64,000 nucleotides of DNA, from positions 409,211 to 473,210 of the forward strand of contig NZ_CP036281.1 in NCBI RefSeq assembly GCF_007750395.1, in the 5' to 3' direction. Position 1 is the first letter of the stretch, and the number at the start of each line of letters is the position of its first letter. This DNA comes from Polystyrenella longa (GTDB lineage Bacteria > Planctomycetota > Planctomycetia > Planctomycetales > Planctomycetaceae). Below the pieces are notes generated by a model. The model ran no database searches, had not been told where the DNA came from, and saw only the letters and a list, made by a program, of their open reading frames with translations. The position numbers and the translations under genes were made by a program. Of this stretch, positions 31,639 through 36,219 are shown in pieces.

Positions 31639-34065
31639 ATGTTTCGAAAGATTTTCCCTCTCGGAGTTAGTTCTCTCGTTGTCTGTTCTCTCTGGGCCTG
31701 CTTTCTTTGTCTGATGTTCTCTGGATGCGATGAGCCTGTACGCGAGGTCGAGCCGGTTGAAGAAACAACCAGCCAGACCGAAGCGACCATCCTTCCCGCA
31801 TCCACCGCTACTGAGGATGCGGCAGTACCGGCAAAAGAGGAACCGGAAATAACCGAACCCTACACAGCAGAGCTGGAAGCAATAAAAGCGGCCTGGCAGC
31901 ATAACGCAGAGAAATATAACGAGATCAAAGCGGTGCTGGAGGTCGAATATATCAGCCCGCCCATTTACGAAGAGGCCGAGGACGAAGCGGAACTGCAGGA
32001 ACGTCTGGCTTCAGTAAAACCGGAAGACTACACCATTAAAGAATGGCGCGAATCGGTCTGGTTAAACGGGCTTCAATTCCGCAAAGAACGCGAGATCACC
32101 CGCCATCATCCCAAGGAGTTCTGGTTTGATACTCAGGTGACTTACGACGGTTTGCGGGAACTTCATTCGCTTACCGTGCGCGAAGAAGAACAGGCGCCCT
32201 CACTCGGTTCCGTCGATGCGCGGTCCCCTGGTGAATTGAATAACTACTGGCCGGCTGAACTTGAACCGTTTTACAAAGTGGTACGCAACGCAGATGACTA
32301 CGATCACGTCGACTTCTGGAATTCACTCCAGGTCATCGGCGAAGAGGAATATAAAGAGGAAACCTGCCTCGTCGTACAATTGGAAGAAGAGGATAGAGAG
32401 CAGGTGGAATACACGGTCTCTCCCCAAACCAATTATCACATTGTGAAGTATCGTCATCTCGAAAACGGAGTCCCATCCGTTACAGGAGAGATTCAATATA
32501 GGAAAACGGAAACAGGTTGGGTGCCGACGAAGTGGGAAACAATCCAGATGAAAGCGGGCGAAGACGGTCCATTCACAGTGAAAGCGATGCAGGCGAATGT
32601 GACCGTTTCTGAATTCCAGAACGACTTTGAACACACACAAAATTTATACAGTCTTTTATTCCCGGTAGGAGCCCAGGTCCGAATGTGGGGTAGTTCCGAC
32701 CTGATTCCCGTGGTGGCGTCCGTGCCCGAAGAGGAACAAGCCGTTCCCGATCCAATCGAACCGTTGAATGTGAGTGCGATCGTTGAAGAAGTCATTGGGA
32801 CGACTCCCGAAGAAAAGAATACGGAAGGCTTGCCCGCAACGCATAAACCAGTCGACAAAATTACCGCCACTTACAACGACAAACCGATCAATCTAAATAC
32901 CTTCTGCCTCGACCGCGAAGGCAACATTCTGCTCAGTTGCGGAGGCGAAGTTCAGCAGTTGGTTCTTTCCGAGGAAGAGAAAAAACTGCTCGATGAAGAA
33001 GGCGAGGATGCGAAGGTCGATGCTTCTGTCGAAAGTAGTAACAGCGTCATTCTCGTCTATTCCCCCGAAATGAAATTGCAGAAAACGATCAAGCTTCCGT
33101 TCAAAGCAACCGCTTTGACTTCCTTTGATGATTCATCCCTGATGATCGGTGGAGAAGGGCGTCTGGCCCGGATTGATCGGGATGGCAACGTTCTTCATTC
33201 AGGAAGCTCACCACAGATCGACGATATCGATTCTTATCGCGAGAAACTGACCGAAGCCGCGAAAAAAGAACGTGCGGAAGTCATGGAATACCTGAAAGAG
33301 GATCTCATCACGATCCAGAAGCAGTTGGACATTCTCGAGAAAACCAAAGAAGAAGATCGCAGCCGTGGTCAGAAACGAACCATGTTGGCTCTACAGGGAC
33401 AGATCAACTTGATCAATCAGCATCTCAAGCAGGACCAGAAAGGAGTCGATCCGCAATTCGAGATGATGATGCAGATGAAATTACGCGTTCCTGCTCTTTC
33501 TGTAACAGAGAAAGACATTTTCGTCACGGTGCCCAGCCTGGAGGGGTATGGATTTGAAGTTTGGCGAGTGGATCACCAATTCCAGAACCCGGAAATGATC
33601 ATCAGTGACCTGCGTGGCTGTTGTGGTCAGATGGATGTGCAGGCGAAGGACGACAAAATTTACGTCGCCGAAAATGGTCGTTTCCGTGTCGCTTCTTTTG
33701 ACCGAGAAGGCGAACGCCTGAATTCCTTTGGGAAATCAGATCGCTCCTCTAAAGAAGGGTTCGGAAGTTGTTGTAATCCGATGAATGTTCGCTGTTGCAG
33801 TAATGGCGATATTCTGACGGCCGAATCGAGCGTCGGTAACATCAAACGATTTTCACCCGAAGGAGAACTGCTGGCGAACATCGGACATGTGACCGTTACA
33901 GGCGGATGTAAAAACGTCGCCATCGAATACGATGAAGCCCGCGATCGGTATTACATGATGGATCTTCCCAATCACACGATTCATGCTCTTCATTCCATCG
34001 CTCCCACCAGCGAGGTGACTCTCAATGTAGAACCGAATGCAAATTCGCAGCAGCAGGTTAATTAA
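31639..34065 (+). CDS. Cys-rich lipoprotein with C-terminal NHL/6-bladed propeller
   Basis: 808 aa. A lipobox ends the signal peptide (LMFSGC, Cys at 30), so it is a lipoprotein. After an acidic linker, residues about 75-370 look like a LolA-type lipoprotein-sorting fold. Residues about 420-800 are a six-bladed propeller of NHL type, interrupted by a helical insertion (about 535-600). Adjacent Cys pairs stand in the propeller: CC at 661-662 (RGCCGQMD), CC at 711-712 and CC at 719-720, plus a single Cys in GGCKNVA. Such paired Cys could bind a metal or heme. It heads a likely operon with the PhnD-like gene 85 bp downstream. Confidence 0.7.
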   Translation: MFRKIFPLGVSSLVVCSLWACFLCLMFSGCDEPVREVEPVEETTSQTEATILPASTATEDAAVPAKEEPEITEPYTAELEAIKAAWQHNAEKYNEIKAVLEVEYISPPIYEEAEDEAELQERLASVKPEDYTIKEWRESVWLNGLQFRKEREITRHHPKEFWFDTQVTYDGLRELHSLTVREEEQAPSLGSVDARSPGELNNYWPAELEPFYKVVRNADDYDHVDFWNSLQVIGEEEYKEETCLVVQLEEEDREQVEYTVSPQTNYHIVKYRHLENGVPSVTGEIQYRKTETGWVPTKWETIQMKAGEDGPFTVKAMQANVTVSEFQNDFEHTQNLYSLLFPVGAQVRMWGSSDLIPVVASVPEEEQAVPDPIEPLNVSAIVEEVIGTTPEEKNTEGLPATHKPVDKITATYNDKPINLNTFCLDREGNILLSCGGEVQQLVLSEEEKKLLDEEGEDAKVDASVESSNSVILVYSPEMKLQKTIKLPFKATALTSFDDSSLMIGGEGRLARIDRDGNVLHSGSSPQIDDIDSYREKLTEAAKKERAEVMEYLKEDLITIQKQLDILEKTKEEDRSRGQKRTMLALQGQINLINQHLKQDQKGVDPQFEMMMQMKLRVPALSVTEKDIFVTVPSLEGYGFEVWRVDHQFQNPEMIISDLRGCCGQMDVQAKDDKIYVAENGRFRVASFDREGERLNSFGKSDRSSKEGFGSCCNPMNVRCCSNGDILTAESSVGNIKRFSPEGELLANIGHVTVTGGCKNVAIEYDEARDRYYMMDLPNHTIHALHSIAPTSEVTLNVEPNANSQQQVN

Positions 34066-34150: not shown

Positions 34151-35032
34151 ATGCAACGTCTTCTGAATGCTGGACTTGTCCTGTGTGGTTTGATGTTTCT
34201 ATTGCCTCTTCATTCGAGTGCTGCAGAAACCGAGAAGCAGCCGCTGAACTTGATCGTCATGGATCCGCTTGCAGCGCCGTTGGCGTGTGATTGTGTGAAA
34301 GGATACGCTCAGCGAAAGTACGAAAAACTGGCCGAACACCTGGAGACCGAACTCGATCGTCCCGTGAATGTATCCTGGGGAGCATCACTGGAGATCGCGT
34401 TAAAAGAAAAGACGGTGGCGGGGGCCGATCTCATCATTGGTAAAGATTCCGTCGTTCGATATGACAGTGCGAAAGCGAAAATCGATGTTCAGCCAGTCGC
34501 CTGTCTGGCGGGTAAAGATGGCGGTGTGACTCAGTCCGGTTTGATCGTCGTCCGCGCCAAAGACGCGGCGCAGTCGGTGGGGGACTTGAAGGGGTATCGC
34601 CTCTTCTTCGGGCCGAAAGAGAACGAAGAAAAATACGCCGCACCGATGAAGTTACTCCAGGCGGCCAATGTAACTCTCCCCGAGAAAATCGAAACGTATC
34701 CCGCTTGCAGTGATGCAGCGACAGCGTTACTTGAACTCGATAAAGACATTCAGGCGGCGGCCGTTATCTCCAGTTATGCGGAACCGCTACTGGAAGGGTG
34801 CGGGTCGGTAAAAAAAGGAGACCTGCGCGTTGTTGGTGAATCAGAATCGGTCCCTTTCGTGACCGCATTTGTGAATCAAGAGTTATCGACCGCAGAACAG
34901 GATCAAATCAAACAGGCCCTGTTCGATATGATCGATCATCCAGAACTCTTGAGGTCGCTCGAAACCAGTATCGGGTTTCTGGAAATCGAAGAACAGCAAG
35001 CTGTTTTGGGAAGCAGTAAAAAAAAAGAGTAA
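34151..35032 (+). CDS. PhnD-like periplasmic substrate-binding protein
   Basis: 293 aa in the zero frame. A signal peptide is present (GLVLCGLMFLLPLHSSAAE, cleavage near residue 25). The mature protein has the two-lobed PhnD/SsuA fold: MDPLAAPLACDCVKGYAQRKYEKLAEHLE, then a DLIIGKDSVV strand and GLIVVRAKDAAQSVGDLKGYRLFFGP. A Cys pair (CDC) occurs near residue 47-49. No permease or ATPase gene is nearby, so it probably does not work as an importer part here. The gene ends in nine A, and its last codons together with the following stem form a recoding signal that could extend it into the PQQ frame. Confidence 0.75.
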   Translation: MQRLLNAGLVLCGLMFLLPLHSSAAETEKQPLNLIVMDPLAAPLACDCVKGYAQRKYEKLAEHLETELDRPVNVSWGASLEIALKEKTVAGADLIIGKDSVVRYDSAKAKIDVQPVACLAGKDGGVTQSGLIVVRAKDAAQSVGDLKGYRLFFGPKENEEKYAAPMKLLQAANVTLPEKIETYPACSDAATALLELDKDIQAAAVISSYAEPLLEGCGSVKKGDLRVVGESESVPFVTAFVNQELSTAEQDQIKQALFDMIDHPELLRSLETSIGFLEIEEQQAVLGSSKKKE

Positions 35033-35057
35033 CGGATCTTAAAGCTGAGTCCGTTAC
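35008..35057 (+). other. Candidate -1 frameshift (recoding) signal
   Basis: Elements in order: a Shine-Dalgarno-like GGGA at 35008-35011, a run of nine A at 35018-35026 giving the slippery heptamer A AAA AAA in the zero frame, then a perfect 8-bp stem GTAACGGA / TCCGTTAC (35029-35036 with 35050-35057) with a 13-base loop. The stem covers the TAA stop of the PhnD-like gene. A -1 shift joins that gene to the downstream PQQ frame. The order of elements is like that of dnaX. Transcript slippage on the A-run, or a sequencing error in it, would have the same effect. Confidence 0.6.
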
Positions 35058-36219
35058 GAATGATTGGCCAGGTTGGCGGGGAGGCAACAGGCGAGGTGAG
35101 CTCACTTGGCTCCCCGACAGTCTGCCCGACGAAGCCCAATTTCGCTGGACTGCTCCTTTACCCAGTAAAGGGATCGGTGGCTTGGCTGCCAGCCAGGGAG
35201 TAGTGATTGTCGGCGGTCGCAATGTCACCGACAACAGCGATCTCTTCCAATGTTTTGAGGCCGAGACGGGTGAAGAACGCTGGGCCTTCCGCCAATTCGC
35301 CCCAGGGAAAGTCGATTATGGCAACACCCCACGGGCGACTCCACTGATTTCCGAAGATCATGTCTGGGTGGCCGGTGCCTTCGGGCACATCGCCTGTCTC
35401 CGGTTGAACGATGGCGAAGTCGTCTGGAAGAAACATCAGCAGTTTGAGTTTGAAGCGGCTCCCATGATCTGGGGGCACGCCGGTACGCCCTTGCTTGTCG
35501 AGGACCGACTCATTATTCATCCCGGAGGTCCGGATTCCGCCCTGGTTGCCCTTAATGCGCTGACGGGAAAAGTCCTTTGGGAAACCGCTGGCAATCCACC
35601 GGGATATTCTTCGTTGATCGTTGCCGAGGTGCATGGTCGAAAGCAGATCATCGGTTACGAAGAAAAAGCTCTATGCGGGTGGGATTTTGAATCCGGAAAA
35701 CAACTTTGGTCTCTCATCCCTCCCTTCAAGGGTGACTTCAATGTACCAACTCCAATTTACTACGACAGTAAATTGTTCGTTGCCACAGAGAATAACGGGG
35801 CGCGTGTTTATGAATTCGATCCCGCAGGCGAGATTGTTCCTGAACCTTTGATGACGTTTGAAGATCTCGCCCCTGATTCTCATACTCCCGTCATCGCCAA
35901 CGGTCGTTTGTTTGGTGTCTGGGATGGGCTATTTTGCCTGGACTGGAAAAACGACCTGAATCCATTGTGGGTAAATGAAGAACCTTCCTTCAGCAATTAC
36001 GTCAGTCTCGTCACGGATGGAAAGCATGTCCTCGCTACGACAGTGAAAAGCGAACTGATTCTGTTTGATGCGAATGCGTCCGGTCCCGAACCTGTAGATC
36101 GCCTGGAATTGACCACCGACCGAACGGATACCTACGCTCATCCCGCTTTTCTCGGAACTGATATCTTCGTCCGCATCAACAAAGAACTCTGCTGTCTCAA
36201 CCTTGCTCTTCAGGAATAG
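35026..36219 (+). CDS. PQQ-type beta-propeller domain, read through a -1 shift
   Basis: This frame is open from 35020 and has no ATG, GTG or TTG before TTG 35182. Codons before that TTG already encode the conserved start of a quinoprotein-like propeller (DWPGWRGGNRRGELTW), so the real N-terminus lies upstream. Shift-dependent fusion to the PhnD-like protein gives about 689 aa (292 + 397) and supplies the signal peptide the propeller lacks. Propeller blades repeat the motif of ETGEERWAFRQF, LNDGEVVWKKH, LTGKVLWETAG and ESGKQLWSL. It should be a periplasmic binding protein with a BamB-like propeller. If no shift occurs, a 345-aa product from TTG 35182 would lose the first blade. Confidence 0.65.
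   Translation, partial: RVTDLKAESVTNDWPGWRGGNRRGELTWLPDSLPDEAQFRWTAPLPSKGIGGLAASQGVVIVGGRNVTDNSDLFQCFEAETGEERWAFRQFAPGKVDYGNTPRATPLISEDHVWVAGAFGHIACLRLNDGEVVWKKHQQFEFEAAPMIWGHAGTPLLVEDRLIIHPGGPDSALVALNALTGKVLWETAGNPPGYSSLIVAEVHGRKQIIGYEEKALCGWDFESGKQLWSLIPPFKGDFNVPTPIYYDSKLFVATENNGARVYEFDPAGEIVPEPLMTFEDLAPDSHTPVIANGRLFGVWDGLFCLDWKNDLNPLWVNEEPSFSNYVSLVTDGKHVLATTVKSELILFDANASGPEPVDRLELTTDRTDTYAHPAFLGTDIFVRINKELCCLNLALQE

Follow-up and report, generated by a model that had tools for sequence, protein, structure and literature searches.

The locus between positions 34151 and 36219 raises the question of whether two adjoining open reading frames of Polystyrenella longa, one for a PhnD-like substrate-binding protein (SBP) and one for a PQQ propeller that lacks a start codon, are expressed as a single exported protein, and, if they are, at what level of gene expression the reading frame is changed between them.

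The binding protein–propeller locus of Polystyrenella longa

The window is the whole 64,000-nucleotide stretch of DNA that was analysed, taken from a genome assembled as one 6.1-Mb contig; all of the features of this locus lie on its plus strand. The binding-protein frame (34151–35032) encodes 293 aa, matches Pfam PF12974 (E 1.1e-22) and begins with a signal peptide, as judged by eye; its product ends in SSKKKE. The stop codon that terminates this short product is a zero-frame TAA at 35030–35032, directly 3' of a run of nine A (A9) at 35018–35026. The letters confirm that the run lies at the end of the binding-protein gene and supplies a slippery A AAA AAA, as given in the preliminary description, and eight to ten A (A8–A10) occupy the equivalent junction in 61 split loci of relatives. 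The PQQ_2/BamB-like propeller (35020–36219, 399 codons; Pfam PF13360, E 4.2e-21) occupies the -1 frame, which is open from 35020; its first ATG, GTG or TTG is at 35182, downstream of the codons for the conserved DWPGWRGG, again as first described. The length of 689 aa proposed for the joined product is arithmetically correct. Counting both strands, the 6.1-Mb genome has just 23 separate runs of at least nine A, and the same run recurs at this junction in relatives whose selection rested solely on protein similarity; the A9 is therefore beyond chance.

Split relatives across Planctomycetia

Relatives were sought with the propeller as query in 150 genomes of the family and with the binding protein in 170 genomes, and the class and phylum were searched with an 18-sequence profile; the roughly 100 loci obtained were selected by protein similarity and not by the presence of a run. 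Split loci that carry the run and have a readable propeller number 61. They come from at least five GTDB families of Planctomycetia and about 31 genera, with A9 in 44 loci, A8 in 16 and A10 in one. Sixty of them place the propeller in the -1 frame, including L056, in which the frame changes a second time further downstream while the W..WRG start is still in the -1 frame. The exception is L010, the A10 locus of a draft assembly, which would need the loss of one base or the gain of two. A zero-frame stop begins 1–13 nt past the run in all 61 loci, that is, within about four codons, and at 1 nt in 48. The usual junction reads GCA AAA AAA AAG TAR, and the Polystyrenella form AAA AAA AAA GAR TAR. 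The A8 state has arisen several times inside A9 groups through loss of the first (wobble) A, and across the split loci the A9 run is found in reading phases 0, 1 and 2. From this comparison, recoding at the A9 site is close to certain, although it is inferred from sequence without RNA or protein data.

The propeller could instead be a separate protein that initiates by translational coupling, either at a non-standard codon or at a start further downstream, as the two frames overlap or abut at the stop and a GTG or TTG precedes the propeller motif in 13 of 60 loci. An ATG is found upstream of the motif in none of the 60, however, and all three start codons are absent in 47; coupling would require neither an A-run nor a fixed -1 frame. 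The propeller was also described as having no signal peptide of its own, and this holds across the relatives: nearly all linkers lack a signal-peptide-like stretch, while a hydrophobic stretch is present at the N-terminus of the binding protein in 56 of 60. With about 30 relatives fused outright, independent synthesis of the propeller is scarcely credible. The sole split relative without the run, L136 in genome G202, has an in-frame TAG ahead of a propeller that needs no change of frame, and may represent separate genes, readthrough or an error.

Natural fusions in one open reading frame

About 30 relatives, including members of families outside the class, encode both domains in a single open reading frame. 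An AlphaFold2 model of one such natural fusion (mean pLDDT 88) features two folded domains joined by a disordered linker at residues 280–301, and in this model the run of the split relatives falls within that linker. The propeller of the fused homologue matches BamB structures by fold comparison, and a profile comparison relates the binding domain to phosphonate/phosphite-binding proteins. These one-frame genes are the strongest evidence, at the level of sequence, for a functional long product.

Because errors are common in homopolymers and many of the relatives are metagenome bins, a sequencing error, or a pseudogene made by a chance indel in the run, has to be considered. Yet the run, the frame and the adjacent stop recur in assemblies made independently, of which several are complete genomes in a single contig, and both halves of the gene are conserved at about 40–75% identity. 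Given the conserved -1 split loci and the fused relatives, the fusion is taken to be a functional product and error is refuted as a general explanation, its remaining probability being negligible; individual genomes, such as that of L010, could still be wrong. The exported SBP-propeller fusion by frameshifting or transcript slippage that was originally suggested is thus strongly supported: throughout the class the run is kept together with its nearby stop and with a propeller that lies in the -1 frame and lacks a start codon, and about 30 relatives are fused in one frame.

In Gimesia, four species have an in-frame A10 or A8 and four others have A9 and a split gene. Such variation among A8, A9 and A10 would be compatible with phase variation, in which the length of the run differs between cells and toggles the propeller on and off; outside Gimesia, however, the split A9 (or an A8 produced by base change rather than frame change) is kept over 31 genera, where a contingency locus would be expected in all lengths, and phase variation is considered very improbable. 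The split state requires 7 changes on a quick tree compared to 25.6 for shuffled labels. Lineages may leave recoding by restoring a single frame; the natural one-frame homologues serve as controls for asking why cells want both forms and how their ratio is held.

Transcriptional slippage or ribosomal frameshifting

The mechanism proposed is slippage of RNA polymerase at a conserved programmed site. In a share of transcripts the polymerase would re-align on the nine A and add one (A10); unslipped mRNA would yield only the exported binding protein with its KKKE end, while mRNA with the extra A would yield the 689-aa exported protein composed of binding domain, flexible linker and BamB-like propeller. 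The run would thereby determine the proportions in which one gene yields its two products. The run, frame, stop, missing start codon and natural fusions are established by comparison of sequences, whereas the occurrence of slippage, its placement at transcription, the proportions of the products and a periplasmic role are inferred.

The main rival is programmed -1 ribosomal frameshifting, which would make the same fusion from an unchanged mRNA on A_AAA_AAA, as in P. longa, or on the A_AAA_AAG of most relatives. The heptamer is in the zero frame at all split loci, mostly as AAA AAA AAG beside the stop, and is retained in the sixteen relatives that have only A8; these points count against polymerase slippage, but an in-frame heptamer is unavoidable within A9. 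A ribosomal heptamer site needs six or seven A, and the split loci retain runs of eight or nine. The surplus upstream of the heptamer is itself conserved: with AAA AAA AAR in register, the wobble base of the preceding codon is A in 41 of 57 loci, compared to 10% at the four-fold positions of these genes (the related sequences not being independent), and the phase of the run varies between loci.

The two ribosome-specific details first noted for this site did not hold up among relatives. The perfect 8-bp stem over the stop codon is present (35029–35057, with arms 35029–35036 and 35050–35057), but the congener, the nearest relative, retains only four of the eight pairs, and the stem begins only 2 nt past the run, while stimulators of frameshifting usually begin 5–8 nt downstream (PMC4066793). 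Taken alone the stem has modest support, the 91-nt segment scoring z -2.5 and 4 of 200 shuffled sequences folding equally well, and it is probably incidental; as a stimulator it was rejected, since the comparison of junctions bore out the run and the absent ATG but not the stem. Mean downstream folding across the relatives is slightly stronger than in shuffles (z -0.59), a signal that favours the ribosome but overlaps the GC-rich PGWRG codons. The upstream GGGA likewise exists (35008–35011), with a spacing of 6 nt rather than 7, and an upstream SD was rejected as a stimulator, as SD-like tetramers precede the run in 7 of 61 loci compared to 11% in controls. A 7-bp RNA hairpin adjoining the run (35000–35017) is predicted by folding in P. 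longa; as a nascent-RNA element it was also set aside, the mean z before the run being -0.10 over the 61 loci. A search of Rfam returned no match.

Both tRNA-Lys(UUU) and tRNA-Lys(CUU) are present, and the existence of the latter speaks against ribosomal frameshifting; two lysine tRNAs may explain polymerase slippage in Thermus, according to Atkins et al. (PMC5009743). Runs of nine A slip efficiently in bacteria (PMC5009743, PMC1088944), but for the E. coli RNA polymerase poly-A is less slippery than poly-T (PMC6260861), which counts against this mechanism, and the efficiency of the planctomycete enzyme therefore needs measurement. A near-constant direction of shift is read as a sign of ribosomal frameshifting by Antonov et al. 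(PMC3711429); here the direction is -1 in 60 of 61 loci and differs at the A10 locus L010 and at L248 of a second gene family, both in draft assemblies, and on that reading the near-constancy would favour the ribosome. With the ribosome-specific details gone, the remaining evidence points to the polymerase: because the stem and GGGA are not conserved, the run occurs in any phase, both lysine tRNAs are present, and dnaX and a third gene family keep the run, transcriptional slippage that adds one A is considered the best mechanism and a probable one on the sequences available. It is likelier than -1 ribosomal frameshifting, which is judged unlikely but remains the main alternative; the two levels may both contribute, above all in the A8 lineages.

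Comparison with known recoding systems

The closest parallel to slippage at this locus is dnaX of Thermus thermophilus (PMC1088944, PMC5009743), in which nine A give two products per gene, the short one stopped just past the run; there, however, the long product is read in the zero frame and slippage produces the short form, while here it is the long product that needs slippage, and the gene is unrelated. In tssM1 of Citrobacter rodentium (PMC4256274) a poly-A tract near a premature stop gains one base to give the long form, and both forms are needed; that case differs in its A11 run, in being a cell-envelope secretion protein and in its narrow distribution, as opposed to A9 across a bacterial class. 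Yersinia tssM3 is a further case of poly-A slippage (PMC4256274). The poly-A clusters of Antonov et al. 2013, for example magnesium chelatase, resemble this locus in that two annotated genes are joined by -1 with natural fusions elsewhere, and 40% frameshifting was obtained in E. coli from a cassette of nine A; the clusters belong to other gene families, only two planctomycete genomes were scanned, and the main text does not mention the SBP-propeller pair (PMC3711429). The -1 ribosomal frameshift of E. coli dnaX uses the A_AAA_AAG heptamer that is contained in the sites of most relatives; it differs in that E. coli relies on stimulators and has only one tRNA-Lys.

Outside mobile elements, poly-A slippage is, to our knowledge, recorded for few cellular genes and usually in narrow groups. 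The literature on slippage and frameshifting in planctomycetes yielded no report of this case, though an earlier one cannot be excluded as subscription journals were mostly not covered; the mechanism itself is known, while the SBP-propeller gene, its conservation across the class and the set of genes described below appear to be new. Standard gene calling breaks this gene in two, with a propeller that has neither start codon nor signal peptide, and the exported fusion is consequently missed.

Other genes with conserved A-runs

Two other complete genomes contain 9 and 15 runs of at least nine A, and their comparison with P. longa gave two further shared families; in one of these genomes (G048) three of the nine runs belong to the SBP-propeller, vWA/TPR and dnaX families. 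The first of these additions is the planctomycete dnaX, identified by Pfam, with its run at G000:C1:701777-701786 (L190; relatives L281, L303 and L304-L332). An A9 or A10 is present in the C-terminal part in 31 of the 32 genomes read, with a nearby stop in one, and mostly in both, of the other frames, a layout of stops like that of Thermus dnaX (PMC1088944); three loci of this set were found via the run itself and the remainder via the protein.

The second is a vWA/TPR family unrelated to the SBP-propeller gene, with A9 at G000:C1:4973593-4973601 on the minus strand (L209; relatives L242-L261). All 20 loci have A9 or A10, the sole A10 being fused in frame, and in the majority the addition of a single A opens at least 400 further codons and joins two long open reading frames; in another family of the class the gene is a single frame of about 1340–1475 aa. 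The runs of dnaX and the vWA/TPR family sit in other reading phases than that of the SBP-propeller gene. It is somewhat favoured, on this comparative evidence, that Planctomycetia have a class-wide recoding programme in which at least three unrelated genes keep A9 or A10, slipping transcripts would meter short and long proteins, and lineages exit by way of a single frame. With several conserved A9 genes, the planctomycete RNA polymerase is a good test case for slippage.

Protein function and gene neighbourhood

Both domains share fold and Pfam families with known proteins, the PhnD/PtxB binding proteins and the BamB/PQQ propellers, but differ from them in sub-cut-off scores, invariant cysteines and the fusion of the two. 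The binding protein passes for the Pfam superfamily PF12974 and misses the NCBIfam PhnD equivalog cut-off (29.3 vs 261.1 bits); the propeller misses the NCBIfam cut-offs for BamB (47.8 vs 285.2 bits) and PQQ dehydrogenase (41.1 vs 480 bits). The family alignment of the binding protein features an invariant CxC (34283–34294 of the window) and a further invariant Cys, which we believe to be unusual among PhnD-like proteins; these cysteines perhaps form a metal or thiol site. The two forms are inferred to serve as a free binding protein alongside one that carries a propeller, the ligand of the binding domain not being known.

An NHL/SMP-30-like propeller gene (Pfam SGL/NHL in relatives) lies upstream of the pair in 12 of the 13 loci compared. 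In P. longa this partner occupies 31639–34065 on the plus strand and encodes 808 aa, longer than most of its relatives, and the protein has paired cysteines.
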